From an uncultured archaeon (lineage in GTDB: Archaea > Halobacteriota > Methanosarcinia > Methanosarcinales > Methanoperedenaceae), in contig CABMII010000035.1 in the NCBI GenBank assembly GCA_902386255.1, forward strand, positions 1 through 34,507: a stretch of DNA of 34,507 bases. Reading direction: 5' to 3'. The translations under genes were made by a program, and so were the position numbers. The notes beneath the pieces were generated by a model. The model saw only the letters and a list, made by a program, of their open reading frames with translations, was not told where the DNA came from and did not search any database. This document shows, piece after piece, positions 5,940 to 22,885 of this stretch (positions are counted from its first letter, which is position 1; every line of letters starts with the position of its first letter).

Positions 5940-6395
5940 CTACCTAATATTAAACTTCACCCCGATCTTGAACAGCCTCTTCGTAGGCAAATTCATGACC
6001 TCACACCCCGTTTTCTCCTTAATCTCCCTCAGAATCTCCTGCATCCTCTCCTCGCTCTCAGCCGAAAGCGTGAACCAGATATTGTAATTAGCAGGTCTCA
6101 AATAATTATGCGATACCTCATCATATTCATTAATAATCCCGGCCACCTCATCCACTCGCTCTTCCGGCACCTTCATAGCCACAAGCGTGCTAACTCCACC
6201 TGTTTTCTTGGTGCTGATTATCGGACCTATGCGCCTTATAGCCCCCTCTCTCTGGAGCCGCGTGATGCGCCTTATAACCTCTTCCTCTTTTAAGCCGAGG
6301 CTTTTTCCAAGTGCCTCAAACGGCCTGTGCTCAAGCGGGAAATCAAGCTGTACTGCGTTCAATATCTTTTTATCAACATCGTCCAGTGAAATCAT
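5940..6395 (-). CDS. ahbA: Siroheme decarboxylase subunit, AhbA-like
   Basis: The 151-aa protein is the second Lrp/AsnC-like siroheme decarboxylase subunit in the window. It has a winged helix (residues 1-55, with [18 protein letters not shown]) and an effector-like domain with [19 protein letters not shown], the pattern I associate with AhbA. It pairs with AhbB to make didecarboxysiroheme. I place the start at 6395, not at an upstream in-frame ATG at 6428. At 6395 the ATG overlaps the ahbD stop as ATGA and a GGTGA ribosome site lies about 6 nt upstream inside ahbD. Translation is therefore likely coupled to ahbD. Confidence 0.85.
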
Positions 6396-7468
6396 GCCTT
6401 CACCGCTTTCACAGGCACATATACGCAATACGGCTCTTCATCCAGGTAATCGCCTGTAGCCGCATACGCCCTCGCGCGGCACCCCCCGCACACGGTGCGG
6501 TACTCACAGTTCCCGCATTTGCCTTTGAGCTTTCCAGGATCTCGAAGGTCGTTGAACACTTTTGATTTCTCCCATATCATCGCAAACGGCTTCTGCCTGA
6601 TATTGCCTGCAAACGCAGGAAGGTACCCGCACGGATAGACATCGCCTTTGCTTGAAACAAAACAGAATGCAGAGCCACCGAGGCAGCCTTTCGTCATGGC
6701 TTCAAACCCGTGTGTTTCGGGCGTAATCCTTATTCCCTCGGCTTTTGCGCGCTGGCGCATAATCCTGAAATAATGCGGGGCGCATGTGGCTTTTAACTGA
6801 ATCCTCTTATCCTTGCTCTTATCGTAAAACCAGTTAAGCACTCGCTCGTATTCCTCAGGTGGGATTTCCTCGGATTCGATTTCCTCGCCCCTTCCTGTGG
6901 GGACAAGCAGGAATATGTGAAGCGCAGACGCCTTTAATGCGAGTGCAAATTCATAAATTAGCGGGATTTCAACAAGGTTCCTTTTCGTTATCGTGGTGTT
7001 TATCTGGAAACTTAAGCCCTCTTTCTTTAAAATATCAATCCCACGGAGCGCAGCCTCAAATGCACCGGGCTCTCCCCTGAAGGTGTCATGCGTCTCTTTT
7101 GTCGCGCCGTCGATACTGATGCTCACCCGCTGGATGCCCGATTCTTTTAATTTCCTGGCGATTTCAGGCGTGAGAAGAGTCCCATTTGTGGCAAGCACCG
7201 CCCGCAGGCCGCGTCCAGTGGCATACCGTGCAATATCATAAACATCGGCGCGGAGAAGCGGCTCGCCCCCGGTCAGGATTATAATAGGTTTGTATTCTAC
7301 CAGTTCATCCACAAAATGTTTTGCCTCAGCCGTGGATAATTCATCAGGCGTAGGCTCTTTGATGGCCGATGCCCGGCAGTGTATGCAGGCAAGATTGCAG
7401 GCGTTTGTCAATTCCCATGCAATAAGCCTTGGAGGTTTTACTTTTTGTTCTGTCAATAAATCACGCAT
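6392..7468 (-). CDS. ahbD: Radical SAM heme synthase, AhbD-like
   Basis: The 358-aa protein has the radical SAM cluster motif CNLACIHC (C24, C28, C31), the TGGEPLL glycine motif, and a C-terminal SPASM-like region with CxxC-type cysteines ([13 protein letters not shown] and a last Cys near residue 350) for an auxiliary 4Fe-4S cluster. AhbD oxidatively decarboxylates the propionates of Fe-coproporphyrin III to the vinyls of heme b. The start [18 protein letters not shown] and direct linkage to ahbA fit AhbD; the deacetylase AhbC is the main alternative. AAAGGA precedes the ATG. The gene is divergent from the Fic/Doc-like gene, with a 57-bp shared upstream region. Confidence 0.82.
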
Positions 7469-7525: not shown

Positions 7526-7972
7526 TTGAGCCAAAAACTACTCACGGTAGAGAACTTATTGGATATTAACAATGAACTTAAAGAGGATGCTATGAGGGAC
7601 CCTCGGATAGAATACACTGGAAGCGGTGAATATCCAATCAAAAAATATGAACTCGAAAAGTTGATAGAATACACTCCGCGTCGTGATAGTCTTGAAATAG
7701 CAGCATACTACCTTAAGAACATAATCCTGTTGCAGGCGTTCCCGGATGGGAATCACAGGACAGCCCTGTATGCTGTGGAGCTTTTCCTGAAAAAGAATGG
7801 CTACTCTTTCAATTATACACCGGAAGAATCCTATGAATTCAGAAAAGAGCTTTACAGTAGAAGACTTCGGCAATACAAAACCTATGAGGAAAGACCTGTA
7901 AGCGTTTTAAAAGAAGATGATAATCAGGTGTTCTCATTCTGTTTCGAGTTTGTCAGGTCCCATGCGGGTTAG
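7526..7972 (+). CDS. Fic/Doc-like protein with altered catalytic motif
   Basis: The 148-aa protein contains QAFPDGNHRTALYAVE, which aligns with the Fic/Doc motif HxFx(D/E)GN(G/K)R except that the leading catalytic His is Gln (codon CAG). The preceding helices (DSLEIAAYYLKNIILL) fit the Fic helical core. Family members transfer AMP, phosphate or related groups to proteins, or act as Doc toxins. The missing His suggests an inactive or altered enzyme. The only good start is TTG at 7526, because an in-frame stop lies 9 nt upstream. A TATA-like TTTATGTA lies about 30 nt before it, suggesting a nearly leaderless mRNA. No antitoxin gene is adjacent in the same direction. Confidence 0.65.
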   Translation: MSQKLLTVENLLDINNELKEDAMRDPRIEYTGSGEYPIKKYELEKLIEYTPRRDSLEIAAYYLKNIILLQAFPDGNHRTALYAVELFLKKNGYSFNYTPEESYEFRKELYSRRLRQYKTYEERPVSVLKEDDNQVFSFCFEFVRSHAG

Positions 7973-12210: not shown

Positions 12211-12456
12211 GAGGGATGTTAATAGTGGAAAGGAATATAAGAACTACGGCGTGAGGGGGTGGAGAAGGGTATTTCGAATAAATATGTGTGTTCATGAAAA
12301 GCAGTATATATTGGGCTTGTATGTCGTTCGGGGTTTGTTACTCTATTATACGTTTGGGATTGGTGCATCCATTAGGAATCTTGAACCCGAATAACATACA
12401 TAGTGATAAAAATGAGGGGCAAAGAACAGTTTTATAATTCATGATAAAATTAGATA

Positions 12457-14769
12457 TCATAAAGATTTTATAAAATCATTTATACAATCTAAAACTTTCT
12501 CCCTACATGCTGTAGCATCATCCATATTTAGAGTTTTCACGTGAGCTGCTGGATTCCTATAATAATCTACAATTTCCTTAATTCTGGAAGTAAAACCAAC
12601 CTTTGCTAAAAAGATTTCAGGACTTTGGGTTTTAGTTTGAATAAAATCTTCCAAAACACGGAGTAGTATACTTTTGGATCGTTCGGAATCGCTATTGACA
12701 AGAGTGAGAATAAATGCTATTTCGCCAAGTGTAAGTTCTTTTTCTTCTTTAAAAAATTTGCAGACTGATTTTAAATTTTTAATTTTTTCTTCATTTTTCA
12801 GTACCTCATCAAGGGATTTTGAAGAGAAAATTTTAAAATGCGTCCGTATCTTCTTGAATAGTTTAGTATATAATTCACATTCTAGGGCTTTACAATACTC
12901 GATTATAATTGGAGAGAAATCCAGATTAGGATTATATTTGAAGGATCGAAGAAGGAAATCCCCCGTTGCAATTGCACAGATGCTTTCATTCTCTAACTTA
13001 TGTGAGAAACTGACAGTCTGTTTTATTGAATATTCAATTATTTGAACTTCAACTTTTCTTTCCTTAAGTCTGTCGTCCAGCATATGCCACAATTCATAGC
13101 AAAAATTATCTAAAATTTCCGATTTTTTTAATTGGTCTGTTTCGGTAAGATACATCTTTATAAATTTATTTTGCATTTTTTCGGAATTTTCTGATACCCC
13201 AGGAAGTAAAGATTTTACGATATCTGAAAGTGTTTTCTCTTCAGAAAGTTGCTCTTCTATGTAACGGATTTGTTCAATTTTACCATCGAGCTCTTTTTGA
13301 TATTGCGCCCTTATTTCATCGATTTCTTGTAAACTCTCTTTTTTTGCAGCTACATAACCTATTTCCTTAGTAATCGTAGGATCATTTGGTCTAATTTCTA
13401 ATGCTGAATTAAGTTTTTCAAGAGCTGTCTCCCAATCTTTCTTTTTAATTAAAATTCGTGCAAGTCCGATATAGCTCTGGACAAAATAATTATTCAAAGC
13501 GATGGAGCGTTGGAATGATAGTTCAGCTACTTCTATTTGCCCCAAATCAGAGGATATGATACCCTTTTCATACCATAAAAAATCTCTATTTGGCTCTAAA
13601 AGAATGGCTTCCTGAAGATAATTATTGGCTTTTATTTTCTCCTGCTTTAAGTAATGTAATCTGTATAGTTGATATAGTGCATTCCAAGAAGTTGAGACTG
13701 AGACGACAGTCTCATAGATATGAATAGCATCATCTATGTGATTCATTATAGCGAGAATGTATGCTTTACTTGAAAGAGCTTCATAATTTGTTGGCTCCTT
13801 TTCTAAATATTCAGAAATAAGAGAGAGTGCATCGGTATATCTTTGGAGTTTAATATAACAATGCATAAGATTCCTAATAGTCAAGTTATATCCTTGAATT
13901 GAATACTTTTGATAGATTTCTATTGCCTGCTCATATCTACCCAATATTGAAAGACAATTAGCAATACTAAGCGAACATTCAATGCCTTTTGCAGATAACT
14001 TTTCAAATACTTGCAAAGCTTTATCTGCCGTTTCGGAATTTATAAGTCCCCTAGCTGTAGACTCAATTTCACATAGAATTGATTTTTCCTCTAAATGATA
14101 AATACTAATACTATTTTCCAAAAACTCTATGGCACTTTGATTACCCCAACTTCTTCTAATAAGTTGAATTTTTAAAAAAAATAGTGGTCTATCGAATCCC
14201 GATGAGCTTAAGATTTGATCAATTAATCCAATTGCTTCTTCTATTTTATCCATTTTGTCTAGAATATGAATCTTCCTTCTTACCCTATCATCATCGTAGC
14301 CTTTTTTACTCAATAACAAATTAATGCGGTCTAATGCATCATCTAAGTAACCAAGTTTTCTCATCAGAATAATATCTGGATCTCTCTGGCCATGACTTTT
14401 TATACCTTTATAAAACTCAAATTCTGGATTTATTGACAAGACTTGTTCATAATAAGACAAACCTTCTTCTTCTTGTCCTAGCTTATCTAATATCTCAGCA
14501 CACTTTATCAAAGAAGGAATTTTTTGAGGTGAAATCGATAGAGCTTTCTTAAATGAATCTAGCGCTAATAAATATGTATCTTTGTTATTTGTGGATTTAG
14601 CGATATTAAGTTGACATAAACCAAGAAGATGAAATATTTTGGGATCATTATTTTTTTCATTAATTGATAACTCAAGAGTTTTTATGGCCTCCTCATATTT
14701 TTGTTCAGCCATTAAATTTGATACTTTTTTATATATAACGATTGGTTTATTATAATTTGAAGTTTTCAC
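12457..14769 (-). CDS. TPR-repeat protein with C-terminal HEPN-like motif
   Basis: The 770-aa protein is mostly tetratricopeptide repeats (roughly residues 1-460), with recurring motifs such as KYEEAIKTLELSI, RYEQAIEIYQKYS and DWETALEKLNSALEIRPNDP. A charged coiled coil (about 475-510) follows, then an alpha-helical domain. That domain ends in VDYYRNPAAHVKTLN, a HEPN-type R-N-x3-H motif with R738 and H743. HEPN domains are often RNases or RNA-binding. The start is GTG at 14769. An ATG at 14712 is possible, but it would cut the first TPR helix. The gene is AT-rich compared with its neighbours, suggesting transfer. Function unknown. Confidence 0.75.
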   Translation of the reverse strand: MKTSNYNKPIVIYKKVSNLMAEQKYEEAIKTLELSINEKNNDPKIFHLLGLCQLNIAKSTNNKDTYLLALDSFKKALSISPQKIPSLIKCAEILDKLGQEEEGLSYYEQVLSINPEFEFYKGIKSHGQRDPDIILMRKLGYLDDALDRINLLLSKKGYDDDRVRRKIHILDKMDKIEEAIGLIDQILSSSGFDRPLFFLKIQLIRRSWGNQSAIEFLENSISIYHLEEKSILCEIESTARGLINSETADKALQVFEKLSAKGIECSLSIANCLSILGRYEQAIEIYQKYSIQGYNLTIRNLMHCYIKLQRYTDALSLISEYLEKEPTNYEALSSKAYILAIMNHIDDAIHIYETVVSVSTSWNALYQLYRLHYLKQEKIKANNYLQEAILLEPNRDFLWYEKGIISSDLGQIEVAELSFQRSIALNNYFVQSYIGLARILIKKKDWETALEKLNSALEIRPNDPTITKEIGYVAAKKESLQEIDEIRAQYQKELDGKIEQIRYIEEQLSEEKTLSDIVKSLLPGVSENSEKMQNKFIKMYLTETDQLKKSEILDNFCYELWHMLDDRLKERKVEVQIIEYSIKQTVSFSHKLENESICAIATGDFLLRSFKYNPNLDFSPIIIEYCKALECELYTKLFKKIRTHFKIFSSKSLDEVLKNEEKIKNLKSVCKFFKEEKELTLGEIAFILTLVNSDSERSKSILLRVLEDFIQTKTQSPEIFLAKVGFTSRIKEIVDYYRNPAAHVKTLNMDDATACREKVLDCINDFIKSL

Positions 14770-14797
14770 ATCAGATGTAATTATTCACATCTGATGT
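14768..14797. promoter_or_regulatory. Perfect inverted repeat over the TPR gene start
   Basis: ACATCAGATGT (14768-14778) and ACATCTGATGT (14787-14797) form a perfect 11-bp inverted repeat with an 8-base spacer. A TATA-like TACTAAATAC overlaps its upstream edge on the minus strand (14796-14805), and the first arm overlaps the GTG start. The repeat therefore covers the expected transcription start, as an operator would. A repressor, possibly the TPR protein itself, is a guess. Confidence 0.55.
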
Positions 14798-15037
14798 ATT
14801 TAGTATTTCCGTTCGGTTCATAAATTTAGACATATTTTGATATTGAACTTCATATTTCTATTGGTTTAAATGAGGTTGAGGGAAAAACCTCTGCTTTACT
14901 CTACTGCGAACATATTTTCAGATCCGTTCTATTTAAAAAAATTCAAACAAACTAGTAAACGATAGAAACCCCTCATGTACCTGCCCCGAGATGCTCCCCA
15001 CATTCCAGTGCGGAGTCCGTGACTACATCTGAAAATC
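14798..15037. other. Intergenic, no gene seen
   Basis: This stretch between the TPR gene promoter and the gltB terminator has no convincing reading frame on either strand and no tRNA-like fold that I can draw. A short inverted repeat GAGGTT/AACCTC (14872-14891) could act as a hairpin. The remainder is AT-rich except for a GC-rich patch near 14970-15025 of unknown meaning. Confidence 0.5.
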
Positions 15038-15072
15038 AAAAAAAAAGAAAGGCTCTACTTTCGTAAAGCCTT
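15038..15072 (-). terminator. Hairpin plus T-run terminator after gltB
   Basis: On the minus strand AAGGCT and AGCCTT form a 6-bp stem 14 bases after the gltB stop. A run of nine T follows at 15046-15038. This has the layout of an intrinsic terminator. Confidence 0.65.
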
Positions 15073-15085
15073 ATTCATTAATTCT

Positions 15086-16675
15086 TCACTCATCCAATAT
15101 TGCTTCTGCCGTCTCGCGATAGGCATTCATCACATAAGGAATGCCAGAAACCTTTGAAGCATCCTCTGTCAATGCCATGACATCCTGGCGCCCGATAAGC
15201 GAAACATTGAACCTGCGCGAGCCTGCCATGAGCTGCTGCAAGCCTGTCCTGAACTTCTGGGCATAGGTGTAAATGCCTACTGCTCCCAGCGGGAGATTCT
15301 TCATGTCATCGCCGAATTTCTGGGCAAGTTCCTCATAGCATACGAAAATTTCCTCAGGCCTGCTTCCGAACTCGGAAACCGTCTTGGGCAAATCGCCGTC
15401 TTTTATCCACTGACCGATGTTCTTACCAACGAAACCGGGTATCATCAATGCTCTTCCCATGCATACTGCCTTGAAGTATGGTGAGCCCATTGCCAGCGCC
15501 TTATAGACGCCGTCTTCGCTTGAGAAGCCGCCTGCCATGGCAAGGTCGGGTACTCTCATGCCTTTCCTGCTCAATTTCTCGGCGAACTCATACATCAACG
15601 ACTGGAAATAGAACGTAGGAATGCCCCATTCTTCCATCATCGGCCAGGGGCTCATGCCGGTACCGCCGGGTGCGCCGTCGCATGTCAGGAGGTCAATCTT
15701 CGCTTCGGAGCAGTATTTCAATGCCATTGCAGCTTCCACCATGGAATAAGCGCCGGTCTTGAGTGTGACTCTCTTGAAACCAAGGTCGCGCAGGCGGTCA
15801 ACCTCTTCCATGAATCCTTCTTTTGTGACAAAGCCGAGCCTTGAGTGCCGCTCGAATTCCTTAATAGCTCCTTCCTTGTATGCAATCTTTATCGCAGGGT
15901 CTGTCGGGTCGGGTGTAACGATGTATCCCCGTTTCTTAAGTTCAACCGCGCGCTCGATGCTGTTTACTTTTATCTCGCCGCCTATGCATTTTGCGCCCTG
16001 CCCCCATTTAAGCTCGATTGTATCAAGGTCATGTTTCGATGAAACATATTCGGCCACGCCGAGCCTTGTATCTTCCACGTTCATCTGGACGAGGATTTCG
16101 CCAAAGCCTTCATGATATTTCTTGTAGGTGGTTATCCTGCGGTCCATTTCTGGCGAGCTCTTAATTTTCTTATTGCTGTCAAGCACAAGCCCGGGGTCGA
16201 TGCCGCACACGTTCTCACCGCATACGAGCGTTATCCCTGCGATTGCAGCGCCTGCTGCGAAATGCTCCCAGTTCTTTCTTGCGATTTCGGTGGAGCCAAG
16301 CGCACCTGTGAAAATCGGTACTTTCATGCGGACTTTCTTATCCCAGCCGTATTCGGTCTCGGTATTGACGCGCGGGAATATCGCCGTATCGGGATTGGGT
16401 TCTTCTCCCTCAGGTAATCCCCATGCTCCCACTGCGTAGCCCTGAATGTTCAAATGGGAATAATCCACCGGGTAGTTCTTGTCTGCGCCTGCGGTTATAT
16501 TTCCGAAGGGCCCGGGATAAATCACTTCACGTCCCCTGAATGAGGATTTGAAGATTTCACAGTTGCCACGGCAACCGTCTATACACCGGGTGCATATCCC
16601 TGACATCGGGGATACGCTCTTTGAGCGATTAAAGGTCTGCGTCGCTTCATTCGCATTTGGTTGTCTAAGATTCAT
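15086..16675 (-). CDS. gltB: Archaeal glutamate synthase, FMN-binding domain protein
   Basis: The 529-aa protein is the central/FMN domain type of glutamate synthase without the N-terminal amidotransferase domain, as in many archaea. Seen features include PVDYSHLNIQGYAVG, GALGSTEIARKNWEHFAAG, IELKWGQGAKCIGGEI, LKTGAYSMVEAAMAL, LLTCDGAPGGTGMSPWPM and AGGFSSEDGVYKALAMG. An N-terminal cysteine cluster (CTRCIDGCRGNC) suggests an Fe-S site. It would make glutamate from 2-oxoglutarate using ammonia from a separate glutaminase or other subunit. I use the ATG at 16675 because GGAGG lies about 5 nt upstream; a frame extends to 16708 without such a site. A terminator follows the stop. Confidence 0.85.
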   Translation of the reverse strand: MNLRQPNANEATQTFNRSKSVSPMSGICTRCIDGCRGNCEIFKSSFRGREVIYPGPFGNITAGADKNYPVDYSHLNIQGYAVGAWGLPEGEEPNPDTAIFPRVNTETEYGWDKKVRMKVPIFTGALGSTEIARKNWEHFAAGAAIAGITLVCGENVCGIDPGLVLDSNKKIKSSPEMDRRITTYKKYHEGFGEILVQMNVEDTRLGVAEYVSSKHDLDTIELKWGQGAKCIGGEIKVNSIERAVELKKRGYIVTPDPTDPAIKIAYKEGAIKEFERHSRLGFVTKEGFMEEVDRLRDLGFKRVTLKTGAYSMVEAAMALKYCSEAKIDLLTCDGAPGGTGMSPWPMMEEWGIPTFYFQSLMYEFAEKLSRKGMRVPDLAMAGGFSSEDGVYKALAMGSPYFKAVCMGRALMIPGFVGKNIGQWIKDGDLPKTVSEFGSRPEEIFVCYEELAQKFGDDMKNLPLGAVGIYTYAQKFRTGLQQLMAGSRRFNVSLIGRQDVMALTEDASKVSGIPYVMNAYRETAEAILDE

Positions 16676-17090: not shown

Positions 17091-17426
17091 TTATAAAGAT
17101 TGAAGTATCTTCTCCAGCGCATCAATCAGCGGTAGCAGGTCGTTATGGACAGTTTCCCAGACGATTACCAGGTCGACATCATCATATTCATGAATCATGA
17201 TGTTGCGCATACCGACCATGTCGCTCCAAGGCAAGTCGGGATAAGCTGCTCGTGTTTCTTCTGGGATTCGCCGCGCCGCCTCTCCTATAATTTCCAGGCG
17301 CCGGATGATGGCATCTTGGCACTGGAGGTCATTATAAAATTCCTCCTTGGTTTTATCGCCAATATACTCAATGGCGAGCTTTGCAGCTTCCAGAATGTCA
17401 AGCATGTATTCCCTATCACGCTGCAT
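17091..17426 (-). CDS. hepT: HepT-type HEPN toxin RNase
   Basis: The 111-aa protein belongs to the DUF86/HepT family. The RNase motif Rx4HxY is intact as RNIMIHEY (R74, H79, Y81), within an all-helical HEPN fold with a conserved IIRRLEIIGEAARRIP helix. HepT cleaves RNA and is silenced by a cognate MntA-type nucleotidyltransferase that adds AMP to the tyrosine of this motif. Its start overlaps the 3' end of the MntA-type gene by 11 bp, so the two are co-translated, antitoxin first. The length is typical. Confidence 0.9.
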   Translation of the reverse strand: MQRDREYMLDILEAAKLAIEYIGDKTKEEFYNDLQCQDAIIRRLEIIGEAARRIPEETRAAYPDLPWSDMVGMRNIMIHEYDDVDLVIVWETVHNDLLPLIDALEKILQSL

Positions 17427-17796
17427 AGACAGCCTCTGCTGAATTTATAATGGCATTTCTGCGGATGTAATTCCGGCTGGATTCGATACCGCGGCGGCTG
17501 ACTATGTCAACTTCGCGCCCGAAAATCTCTTTGAGTTCGTTTTCCATGTGGACAAGATCGAATAAGGTATGTTTTGCATCCTCGCTGAATGTGACAAGCA
17601 CGTCTATGTCGCTGTCAGGGTGAAAATCCTCACGGAGCACAGAGCCGAAAAGGGAGAACTCGCGTATCTTCCATTTTTTACAGAATTCTGCAATCTTTTT
17701 TTCCGGGATATCTATGTGTGATTTTGTTTTTGACATTCTTATATATCTATTATTGTGTATGTCTTTTAAATTCCTTTTCATAAAGTCGCATTGCAA
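17416..17796 (-). CDS. mntA: MntA-type nucleotidyltransferase antitoxin
   Basis: The 126-aa protein carries the minimal nucleotidyltransferase motif FGSVLREDFHPDSDIDVLVTF, that is GS-x10-DxD, with G51-S52 and D63/D65. It AMPylates the partner HepT and so acts as antitoxin. The likely start may be the internal ATG at 17736 (residue 21), because residues 1-20 (MQCDFMKRNLKDIHNNRYIR) lie outside the usual fold. The longer form starts with TTTTTAAAAAG about 20 nt upstream, so either is possible. The hepT gene overlaps its end. Confidence 0.88.
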   Translation of the reverse strand: MQCDFMKRNLKDIHNNRYIRMSKTKSHIDIPEKKIAEFCKKWKIREFSLFGSVLREDFHPDSDIDVLVTFSEDAKHTLFDLVHMENELKEIFGREVDIVSRRGIESSRNYIRRNAIINSAEAVYAA

Positions 17797-20445: not shown

Positions 20446-20889
20446 TCATGGGCTAAGATAATTATTTATTTCATCAATAATTTTAATTTTTTGCTCTTCG
20501 CTTATTTTTACTTTTTTTCCTAATAATTTAGCCAACAGCCAATTTCTTGAGCATTTTTTCTTTATTTTAATCCTCATTGGCTTTGGTATATAAATAGCTT
20601 CAATAGAATTTATAAAACCTATGATTTCTTGAGATTGTCCCCTATTAACTCTTTTAGACAGCTCTGCCATTGCTTTTTTTATTTCTGTTTGATTAGCTTG
20701 AATATAGATACTTCTAGTATTATTTAGTACAGTATAATATGTTATAACTATACTCGTTATTCCAGTCGCAACAATTGCAGCTACAGGTATTAGAATTTGA
20801 GAAATTAGAGCCAATGAATCATTAGTTCCTGCTTGTGAATTAATCATAACTCTGGCTACATCAATTGTGATGTTGGTTTCATTTAACAT
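20446..20889 (-). CDS. Small membrane protein of the ATPase cassette
   Basis: The 147-aa protein has a short extracellular-like N-terminus, a long hydrophobic stretch (about residues 26-54, ISQILIPVAAIVATGITSIVITYY), and a basic cytosolic tail (around RIKIKKKCSRNWLLAKLLGKKVKISEEQKIK). One TM or a tight hairpin is possible. It is the last of three minus-strand genes, 20 bp after the PIN-like gene. No family is recognised. It has AT-rich codon use like its two upstream neighbours. Its role in membrane anchoring or as an effector is a guess. Confidence 0.65.
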   Translation of the reverse strand: MLNETNITIDVARVMINSQAGTNDSLALISQILIPVAAIVATGITSIVITYYTVLNNTRSIYIQANQTEIKKAMAELSKRVNRGQSQEIIGFINSIEAIYIPKPMRIKIKKKCSRNWLLAKLLGKKVKISEEQKIKIIDEINNYLSP

Positions 20890-20909
20890 GGAACTAAAAG
20901 ATTTATTTC

Positions 20910-21476
20910 TTATTCTTCAATCCGTATTTTATTTTCCATCTCGCAAACGTTTTTGCATTCAATCCTCAAGCTTAGACCAGTTGTATGTGTAGGGTGGTAA
21001 ACATTTTCTTTATCTTCTTTCGTTGAGATAATTGTTCTCTGGCATAGAGATGCCGCTAAGTCCAAATAATTTCGCTTTGACCTTAAAGCGTCCGATTCTT
21101 CTATCAAGTTAAAGTCAACATCTATGAGACCGCCAACTCCTTCTTTTTTTATTGCATGTTGGTCATTTGAGAGAATGGAATTAAGAGAACCCAAAAGAGG
21201 CTCCGGTAATAGTAATCCATCATATTCGCTCAGGATATGATTGTTATAATAAAGGATGCATTTTCCATTATCAATAAAATCTAAAAATTTATCAAGGCAT
21301 TTACTTTCTTTGATAATCCAACTCTTCCGTCTACCCGTCTCGGTTTCGATTAAACATACTATAACTTCATCGAGGGAGTCTTTACATCCACTATATTTCT
21401 CACATGACGTAATACCGCATTCGTGTAAACAATATTTTTTAAATAATTCTGCATCAACAACGCATTCTGATGTCAT
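20910..21476 (-). CDS. PIN-like, Cys-rich candidate nuclease
   Basis: The 188-aa protein has no firm match. Four acidic residues fall in the order and setting of a PIN domain: D8 in CVVDAELF (strand 1), E84 in ILSEYDGLL, D139 in NYLDLAASL and D155 in IISTKED, where PIN proteins have a T-x-D segment. A cluster of cysteines (CLHECGITSCEKYSGC, residues 16-31) is inserted after strand 1 and could bind a metal. The gene overlaps the ATPase 3' end by ATGA, so it is likely made with it. A nuclease effector is inferred; PIN assignment needs a profile or structure search. Confidence 0.55.
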   Translation of the reverse strand: MTSECVVDAELFKKYCLHECGITSCEKYSGCKDSLDEVIVCLIETETGRRKSWIIKESKCLDKFLDFIDNGKCILYYNNHILSEYDGLLLPEPLLGSLNSILSNDQHAIKKEGVGGLIDVDFNLIEESDALRSKRNYLDLAASLCQRTIISTKEDKENVYHPTHTTGLSLRIECKNVCEMENKIRIEE

Positions 21477-22885
21477 TTTTCTTTTGATAAATTTTCCAAT
21501 AATTTTTTCATCATTTTTCTATTTTCTTCTAATTTAAAATTAGTAACATAGTTGTCAGGCAAATTTCCATCGGGCAAATTTGAAGTCGAATATTGACCTT
21601 TAGAATTTATCTTGATCTCAGTGTATGTAGAACACTTTTTATCCTCATCCTGTTCGATATAATAGATAGCTACATTATCTGAAGATATATCTTCATTCAT
21701 TATACAATATCTAATCCTTTCAATAAAATAGTCTGAATGTGTTTCCAATAAGAATTTTCTTTCATTGGATGCGAACTTAACAAAGAAATCCGCTAAATCT
21801 GCCTGAATTTTTGGATGCAAATGTATCTCTGGCTGCTCTATTAATATTAAGGATTCTTTTTGTTGTTTTAGACTTTGAACTATTAATGGTAATATTTGAG
21901 CTGTCCCACTTCCTGTGTCGGCATAATTAACTTCTTTATCGGTAATTTTTGTTTTCAATTTGAACTCAAAAATTTTTGAATTTTCTTCCATTTCTGAAAC
22001 GTATAAAGAATTAACAATATCCATCTTTTTTAAATATTCCTGTGAATCATTTCTTATTTCAGAGTTAGATGCTAAAATTTGAACGGCATGTTCGCCCTCT
22101 GTTCCAACATCATTGTAGTCTCCTTTTTCGTAAGACCTTCTAGCAATAGCTCTAAGCGGACCTATGTATATTATATTTTGAAAATCTTGTTTTATATTTT
22201 GGTAGAAATCAGTTGAAATCTTTTGTAAATTCAAATAAAATCTTAAATTTTCCATAAAATCTGACCTGATATTAGCCTTACTCTTAGTGCTTTCAAAAAT
22301 GTCAGGAATCAAAAACATTTTATCCTTTTTTTCTTCATAAAAAGCAATTATAAAAAAGAAATTATTTCGATAAAATGTAGGAATAAAAGTTTCAAAAAAC
22401 TCTTTGTATTTTTCCTTTCCAGAGGTCTTAATATCAAATTTAAATGTTTTTGGAACATAATATGCCGATTCGTCTTTAGGTGTACCTTTCTTCTTCGTAA
22501 TTTCATTAATAGTATATTCGAATCTACCATTGTTGCATGAAAAGTCTTTGACATATACCTCATTATTATCTGGATTTTTTAATACATTTATGTCAAAATA
22601 TTTTCCATCTTCCAGTTCAAAATTAAAATGCATCTCTTTTTTTTCCAAGTCCTGATGAATTAAAGTATCAAAATTACCCAAATTCAGATGAGGGGTTCTG
22701 AATTTCAAGACTTCTTCAGGACCTCCTAATTTTAATGTTTGCTGGATTAAACCTATTGCTTGCAATATACTACTTTTCCCACCATTATTCGGACCAACGA
22801 GGATAGTAATTGGTTTTATTTCAATTTCAGCGTGCTTAAATGCTTTGAAATTATCCAATGTTATTTTTTTAATCACAATATCCAC
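21473..22885 (-). CDS. SMC/OLD-like AAA ATPase (AAA_15, DUF3696-like)
   Basis: The 470-aa protein begins with IKKITLDNFKAFKHAEIEIKPITILVGPNNGGKSS, the ABC/SMC-type Walker A (GPNNGGKS at about residues 32-39). Much later come Walker B (ILIEQPEIHLHP) and LLETHSDYFIERI. These mark an OLD/RecF-like ATPase; a glycine-rich DTGSGTAQILPL resembles the signature segment. There is no TOPRIM domain. Its C-terminal SNLPDGNLPD region recalls DUF3696. Such ATPases pair with effectors in several phage-defence systems. It is first in a three-gene minus-strand set with overlapping or closely spaced starts. Its codon use is AT-rich. Confidence 0.82.
   Translation of the reverse strand: MDIVIKKITLDNFKAFKHAEIEIKPITILVGPNNGGKSSILQAIGLIQQTLKLGGPEEVLKFRTPHLNLGNFDTLIHQDLEKKEMHFNFELEDGKYFDINVLKNPDNNEVYVKDFSCNNGRFEYTINEITKKKGTPKDESAYYVPKTFKFDIKTSGKEKYKEFFETFIPTFYRNNFFFIIAFYEEKKDKMFLIPDIFESTKSKANIRSDFMENLRFYLNLQKISTDFYQNIKQDFQNIIYIGPLRAIARRSYEKGDYNDVGTEGEHAVQILASNSEIRNDSQEYLKKMDIVNSLYVSEMEENSKIFEFKLKTKITDKEVNYADTGSGTAQILPLIVQSLKQQKESLILIEQPEIHLHPKIQADLADFFVKFASNERKFLLETHSDYFIERIRYCIMNEDISSDNVAIYYIEQDEDKKCSTYTEIKINSKGQYSTSNLPDGNLPDNYVTNFKLEENRKMMKKLLENLSKEK

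Follow-up and report, generated by a model that had tools for sequence, protein, structure and literature searches.

A predicted HEPN-like RNase domain in a stand-alone TPR protein of a Methanoperedenaceae archaeon and in the TPR proteins of archaeal viperin loci

The contig CABMII010000035.1 of an uncultured archaeon of the Methanoperedenaceae (GenBank assembly GCA_902386255.1), analysed here over its whole stretch of 34,507 nucleotides (the window), carries on its minus strand, at positions 12457..14769, a gene for a protein of 770 amino acids in which an array of tetratricopeptide repeats (TPR) precedes a helical C-terminal domain with the motif RNPAAH. Our data support a HEPN-like nature of this domain, and the gene probably represents a horizontally acquired single-gene defence system, in which a TPR sensor is combined with a HEPN RNase. 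The same domain occurs in the long TPR proteins encoded next to viperins in archaea. It seems, in consequence of this homology, that the archaeal viperin-associated TPR protein carries a HEPN effector and that the viperin operon includes a predicted RNase effector.

A single-sequence search revealed the domain in 7 of 392 genomes of the phylum and in 2 of 99 genomes of relatives, the window's own genome being counted in both, and also on two plasmids. With profile A1, constructed from 10 sequences, it was detected in 22 of the 392 phylum genomes, including the window's own. Outside the window, 15 of the 23 matches of this profile belong to long open frames of 983–1345 amino acids, which comprise the viperin-linked set (n = 15: L015–L019, L050–L054, L058, and L061–L064). 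All 15 are recognised by the PADLOC model “TPR” (PDLC02907; E 4.8e-216 for L018 and 9e-269 for L063), and the domain is located at the C-terminus in 12 of them and internally in three (L062–L064). The Pfam scan of nine long frames gave TPR families over the cut-off in five, only weaker TPR matches in three, and none in L061; since this Pfam support is uneven, the TPR label of the long frames derives partly from PADLOC.

The neighbours of the 15 long frames were grouped by BLAST, and 36 proteins picked from this grouping were then scanned, which identified pVip in 17 of 17 cases, Csa3 in 14 of 14 (together with a CARF family), and VakA in 5 of 5. With respect to loci, pVip is present in 14 of the 15 and Csa3 also in 14, every locus having at least one of them, and VakA is found in five. 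The window sequence alone is sufficient to find five of the 15 viperin-linked domains (E 2.4e-5 to 2.3e-4), and the equivalents of its residues R738 and H743 in L018 are R946 and H951. The viperin type with TPR is reported to be the sole defence type exclusive to Archaea (PMC12988326). Searches of open-licence literature on viperin together with TPR, HEPN, or Csa3 turned up no mention of a HEPN domain in a viperin-associated TPR protein.

The active site of HEPN domains is described as Rx4-6H, the arginine mostly being followed by N, D, or H, and a second conserved acidic residue is located upstream, often within Ex3[KR] (PMC3710099). The window protein has R738-N739-P-A-A-H743 (12541..12558, minus strand), a predicted active-site motif with the required spacing and a polar residue after R, and its upstream acidic residue is E630. 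We aligned 46 domain matches less three short fragments, which resulted in 43 rows, 41 of them different: R738 is retained in 42, N739 in 41, and H743 in all 43, while E630 occurs in 42 (with D in the remaining one), position 627 (K in the window protein) holds K or R in 42, the number of domains that also retain G682. The stretch E632-x3-K636 also fits Ex3K, with E632 conserved in just 22 of the 43 domains.

Part of these rows came from pattern scans, which added 15 loci from genome contigs (among them the plasmid locus L066, the same plasmid as L021) and three loci from viral contigs; the patterns contained the motif or the K–E region, which biases those rows towards the motif. The rows obtained by single-sequence and profile searches of the phylum genomes are free from this bias, and the 15 viperin-linked rows, all found by profile or single-sequence search, retain R, N, and H in 15 cases out of 15. 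When used alone as a query, the window domain found no relatives in the viral and phage collections and none in the first scan of genome contigs; alignment-based queries of the viral collections returned L024 and then L080 and L081. Taken separately, the motif is modest evidence: RNx3H appears in 1.9% of 5000 shuffles of the window protein and within the last 210 residues in 0.7%, the looser Rx4-6H appears anywhere in 75%, and the open reading frames (ORFs) of the fetched loci contain 0.20 RNx3H per 770 amino acids, a figure to which the HEPN loci themselves contribute and which is therefore too high. It is raised above chance because it is near-invariant across the homologous domains.

The region of amino acids ~565–770 (12460..13077, minus strand), which we predict to be an RNase, matches the domain profile at E 5e-77, this profile including the window sequence itself. 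An AlphaFold2 model of the domain, built from the window and related-loci sequences, is an all-helical bundle with a mean pLDDT of 87.1 and a pTM of 0.77, which corresponds to the helical fold of HEPN. When 990 of the top 1000 PDB candidates of Foldseek were re-scored with VIA-align, which contributes no candidates of its own, the best match was LsoA (5hy3; Z 10.2 over 146 residues at 3.2 A), followed by the HEPN domain of human sacsin (3o10; Z 9.4). The uncharacterised Sulfolobus protein 2q00 (Z 8.8) and its NMR model 2jpu (Z 7.8), both of which we take to be HEPN, come next, before the HEPN toxins 8xdj and 8xeh (both Z 7.4) and the HEPN protein 4nqf (Z 7.3), and further HEPN/MNT and Csm6 entries are found at Z 6.9–7.2 (Csm6 Z 7.0). 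Moreover, the relative L063 reaches 24.4 of the 26.8 bits required for the Pfam family HEPN_MAE_28990 (sub-threshold; E 3.9e-5) over the same stretch as the domain. A single helix (726–743) of the full-length model carries both R738 and H743, as expected in the earlier note, which had anticipated a HEPN-like C-terminal domain with these two residues held together; in the domain model the motif helix stops one residue short of H743. The predicted fold, the VIA-align matches, and the motif conservation are all in line with that proposal. HEPN is thereby supported as the best reading of the C-terminal domain, given the conserved motif, the predicted fold, and the sub-threshold match of L063.

The gene itself is intact, with 770 codons and no internal stop, and its layout was derived from the ORF list, Pfam, and the structure model. 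The start codon is uncertain: GTG is the listed start, and an alternative ATG lies at 14712 (M20), with a TATA-like TTATATAT seen by eye ~26 nucleotides upstream of this ATG. The TPR superhelix occupies amino acids ~8–460 (13390..14748, minus strand), as follows from Pfam TPR families, predicted helices, and VIA-align. TPR_2 (3.5e-23) and TPR_19 (3.7e-23) are the best families, the best stretches of the listed TPR families fall between amino acids 91 and 482, with DUF627 matching at 18–112. In the full-length AlphaFold2 model, amino acids 8–459 form 27 helices, that is ~13 TPR pairs, and the helical C-terminal part reaches amino acid 769. VIA-align pairs the TPR part with O-GlcNAc transferase, with consensus TPR, and with further TPR proteins, the Z range being 18–22 among the 50 matches listed. 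Behind the repeats, a single predicted helix of 46 residues (amino acids 464–509; 13243..13380, minus strand) presumably forms a coiled coil. The full-length model has a mean pLDDT of 79.8 and a pTM of only 0.52; because of the latter, the relative placing of its parts is unsure. The long TPR array and the positions of R738, N739, and H743 within a C-terminal helical domain, read earlier from the letters of the sequence, are borne out, and the coiled coil read there coincides with the long predicted helix.

At the listed start codon there is a double palindrome, ACATCAGATGT-8 nt-ACATCTGATGT (14768..14797). It consists of two ACATCWGATGT palindromes with 8-nucleotide spacing, and the spaced pair is unique in the genome; the hairpin z is -4.2, and when the window was shuffled 100 times, 8 of the shuffled sequences contained at least two single sites with no more than one mismatch. 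This pair is possibly an operator, a translational hairpin, or a trace of insertion.

The genomic surroundings indicate that the gene lies in extra DNA. The window from 15040 onwards and up to 12246 matches the congener G010 (L113) by blastn, and in the latter only 60 bp lie between these flanks. The window therefore has an insert of ~2.8 kb relative to G010 (12247..15039), which is AT-rich and has the TPR-HEPN gene as its only gene; the GC content of the gene is 31.2% versus 42.3% in the window. At the equivalent site of G006 (L114), a stretch with 31% GC contains a different pair of genes, of AbiL/RloAB type, which matches AbiLi (2.6e-99) and AbiLii (1.2e-28) and also bears AAA_21 (4.2e-32) and RloB (7.4e-41) domains. 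From 14 relatives fetched, both flanking genes are present within the stretch in six (L113, L114, L115, L117, L118, and L124), and yet other genes occupy the site in L117, L118, and L124, those in L117 and L118 being of DNA-repair type (by eye). Across the genus (31 genomes), profile A6 detects the domain in the genome of the window and in none of the 30 other congeners, 12 of the 31 genomes being less than 90% complete or more than 5% contaminated. Most simply, the insert represents a gain, with loss elsewhere as the alternative. The AT-richness on which the earlier note based its suggestion of acquisition is confirmed, and acquisition itself gains support from the 60-bp site in G010 and from the different gene pair in G006.

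To judge what the domain does, its other contexts are informative. Beyond the viperin-linked set, the remaining eight of the 23 profile A1 matches are L014, L055, L057, L059, L060, L056, L049, and a fragment in G267. In L014 (5624–7462, minus strand) an SF1 helicase part, which matches Mokosh MkoA at 3.9e-62, is joined to the HEPN-like domain. Of L055, L057, L059, and L060, the three scanned (L055, L059, and L060) have YaaA-like parts, and two of these also have HEAT repeats behind the domain. L056 is a protein of 528 amino acids with sub-threshold TPR matches, and L049 is an open frame of 239 amino acids. Other loci add a type I restriction–modification (R-M) operon in L020 (2313–11598), which reads by eye HsdM-HsdS-[domain protein]-HsdR; the domain protein, whose matches to type I specificity models reach 7.3e-13, has the HEPN-like domain at its end, and a similar protein in L079 is without R-M neighbours (by eye). 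On the viral contig of L024 (116–1294, plus strand) the domain is accompanied by a weak TPR-type match under the cut-off (PF23310, E 0.0032), and the protein adjoins portal-like genes (by eye); this may be a prophage-borne defence gene. Finally, a group of ~300-residue proteins with a CxxC-type, zinc-ribbon-like N-terminus (by eye) is distributed over several bacterial phyla. Near one of them, in the Dehalococcoidia genome of L070, a viperin-like radical-SAM ORF (15646–16533, plus strand; by eye) was seen ~7 kb from the zinc-ribbon-like HEPN gene.

A tree of the domains splits the viperin-linked and YaaA/HEAT members from the rest with support 100/98. The window domain belongs to the rest, where its shortest paths lead to members of the R-M type and other solo members, without a well-supported smaller group. 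Since the solo-TPR label does not correspond to one clade, fusion to TPR may have happened repeatedly. We consider the chances evenly balanced that the domain represents an uncatalogued HEPN effector family of archaea and bacteria placed behind different sensors (a TPR array, a Mokosh-like helicase, an R-M-type DNA-recognition protein, and a zinc-ribbon-like part), with the viperin TPR protein among its members and the window protein as its viperin-free, stand-alone version.

For the window protein, a probable scenario is that of an acquired one-gene defence protein, in which the N-terminal TPR superhelix would serve for sensing and assembly. The long helix or coiled coil and the linker may hold two copies together and thus pair their C-terminal HEPN domains, and this pair might be released or aligned once the TPR array has bound a protein or nucleic acid of the virus. 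The two domains would then form a composite, metal-independent RNase site from R738, N739, and H743, aided by K627 and E630. Cutting of RNA by the pair would stop the virus or the growth of the cell, either as abortive infection or as a block of viral translation. This scenario builds on the observed TPR array, the predicted HEPN-like fold, the strongly conserved motif, the extra DNA at a site that varies among congeners, and the occurrence of the domain in proteins with antiviral surroundings.

A number of observations weigh against this scenario. Foldseek alone gave nothing significant in the PDB (best E 0.67) or among the viral models of BFVD (best E 0.077), where a MAE-28990-like phage HEPN is found at rank 6 (E 0.46). 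In the VIA-align ranking, the first unrelated row, an alpha-catenin domain, has Z 7.3 and ties with the weaker HEPN rows, and for helical bundles, as the tool itself cautions, Z below ~13 can be due to chance. Pfam at E up to 10 returned for the C-terminal 252 amino acids two matches, both weak and unrelated, and no curated HEPN profile. When the domain was compared by hhalign with RnlA, LA2681, and HepT, each represented by single sequences, no meaningful match emerged, and a sub-threshold MAE_28990 sequence was aligned only over a short segment surrounding the motif (E 0.037); because sequence comparison by hhalign failed in this way, the case for HEPN depends on the predicted structure together with the conservation of the motif. 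A PADLOC scan with a limit of E 0.1 leaves the window protein without a match, to PDLC02907 as to every other family. As to the site, its equivalent in G018 (L115) is occupied by a histidine kinase and a response regulator (the latter by eye), which are non-defence genes; since congeners also hold such genes there, the site is a variable one and not a pure defence island.

A domain unrelated to HEPN, which resembles it in bundle and motif only by coincidence, would agree with the lack of significant Foldseek matches and of profile matches to single HEPN sequences. We find this very improbable, since the top of the re-ranked list is occupied by HEPN domains, with LsoA at Z 10.2 versus 7.3 for the first unrelated row, L063 comes close to the HEPN_MAE_28990 cut-off, and the motif, the polar residue after R, and the upstream acidic residue all fit the published HEPN description (PMC3710099). 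A less radical possibility, though still an unlikely one, is that the HEPN-like domain is an RNA- or nucleotide-binding or dimerising module and that the protein acts not as an effector but as a TPR scaffold for RNA metabolism or the stress response. Such scaffolds are common, but the near-invariance of R, N, and H over archaea and bacteria and the presence of the domain in a single one of the 31 genus genomes, at a variable site, speak against this possibility. It is rather improbable, too, that the protein is the toxin of a toxin–antitoxin or addiction module which chiefly maintains the inserted DNA. HEPN domains are commonly toxins and the insert is AT-rich and sporadic, but this gene is the only one it comprises, nothing of antitoxin size adjoins it on the same strand, and the nucleotidyltransferase at 17416–17796 is already paired with its own HepT.

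Among the known systems, the viperin-associated TPR proteins (PDLC02907) are similar to the window protein in having TPR repeats and the homologous domain with R, N, and H in 15 of 15, and in being archaeal and defence-linked; they differ in their size of 983–1345 amino acids and their location beside pVip and Csa3, whereas the window protein has 770 amino acids and stands alone. Membership of the window gene in the viperin group is disfavoured by the PADLOC result and the 100/98 split of the tree, and an antitoxin partner, a CRISPR/CARF link, and a viperin link were dropped for this gene as the insert consists of one gene. RnlA/LsoA are comparable in fold, LsoA being the best match, and K-12 RnlA has the same R-x4-H spacing with R318 and H323, which are presumably its catalytic residues. 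No sequence similarity was found by hhalign with the single K-12 RnlA sequence. The N-terminal part of RnlA differs from that of the window protein, and RnlB is its paired antitoxin (PMC3710099), whereas the insert of the window contains no RnlB-type neighbour, nor any other second gene.

The TPR-HEPN architecture is shared with the LA2681 family (Pfam PF18733), a fusion on record in the same source (PMC3710099). The “unusual architecture” of the earlier note is thus only partly right, since such fusions were known and the viperin-associated TPR proteins are similar in layout. The PF18733 profile is over its cut-off in 2 of 246 phylum genomes, the window genome not among them, and is absent from the C-terminal Pfam scan; PF18737 (HEPN_MAE_28990) is over the cut-off in none of the 246, with no match in the window genome (G000). 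The C-terminal half of the NCBIfam family NF041917 (HP0729), positions 181–344 of its 355, aligns with amino acids 576–761 of the window protein at E 8e-10, a partial match of 38.4 bits versus the cut-off of 250, and at E up to 0.1 this family finds no match in six other proteins with the domain; HP0729 is listed as a probable ATP/GTP binding protein in PMC3561388. HepT/MntA resembles the domain in its HEPN fold (8xdj and 8xeh, Z 7.4) and differs in being a small two-gene module with a nucleotidyltransferase antitoxin, the pair near the window gene being separate from it. A single-protein sensor-HEPN design has a precedent in DS-11, a one-protein CBS-HEPN system in which phage protection is reported to require the HEPN catalytic residues (PMC13092281). 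What is new here is that a TPR protein which stands alone carries a HEPN-like family absent from Pfam, TPR-HEPN fusions as such being already known.

Several other loci of the window were noted. The HEPN/MNT module (17091–17796, minus strand), 2.3 kb upstream of the TPR-HEPN gene, combines a HepT-like protein (PF01934, 1.7e-28) with the above nucleotidyltransferase (PF01909, 1.2e-17). A second AT-rich block with 30% GC (20446–22885, minus strand) encodes an OLD/AriA-like AAA_15/AAA_21 ATPase, which matches NsnB (4.8e-60) and PDC-M55A (8e-54) in PADLOC; two ORFs of this block, of 188 and 147 amino acids, have no PADLOC or Pfam match, and the block is likely another defence locus. A Fic/DOC-family ORF (PF02661, 2.9e-7) is located at 7526–7972 (plus strand), and a radical-SAM ORF at 6392–7468, ~5 kb from the TPR-HEPN gene, looks by eye like a haem-pathway enzyme.

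The presented comparison suggests an effector for a class of proteins which PADLOC lists just as “TPR”, including the TPR partner in the viperin type reported to be exclusive to Archaea (PMC12988326). It also provides a testable active site, R738/H743 in the window protein and R946/H951 in L018 of the viperin-linked family, so that a simple mutant experiment could reveal the role of the TPR protein in archaeal viperin loci. If the suggested family is real, archaeal viperin immunity would consist of a CARF-type regulator, the viperin chemistry, and a TPR-controlled RNase.
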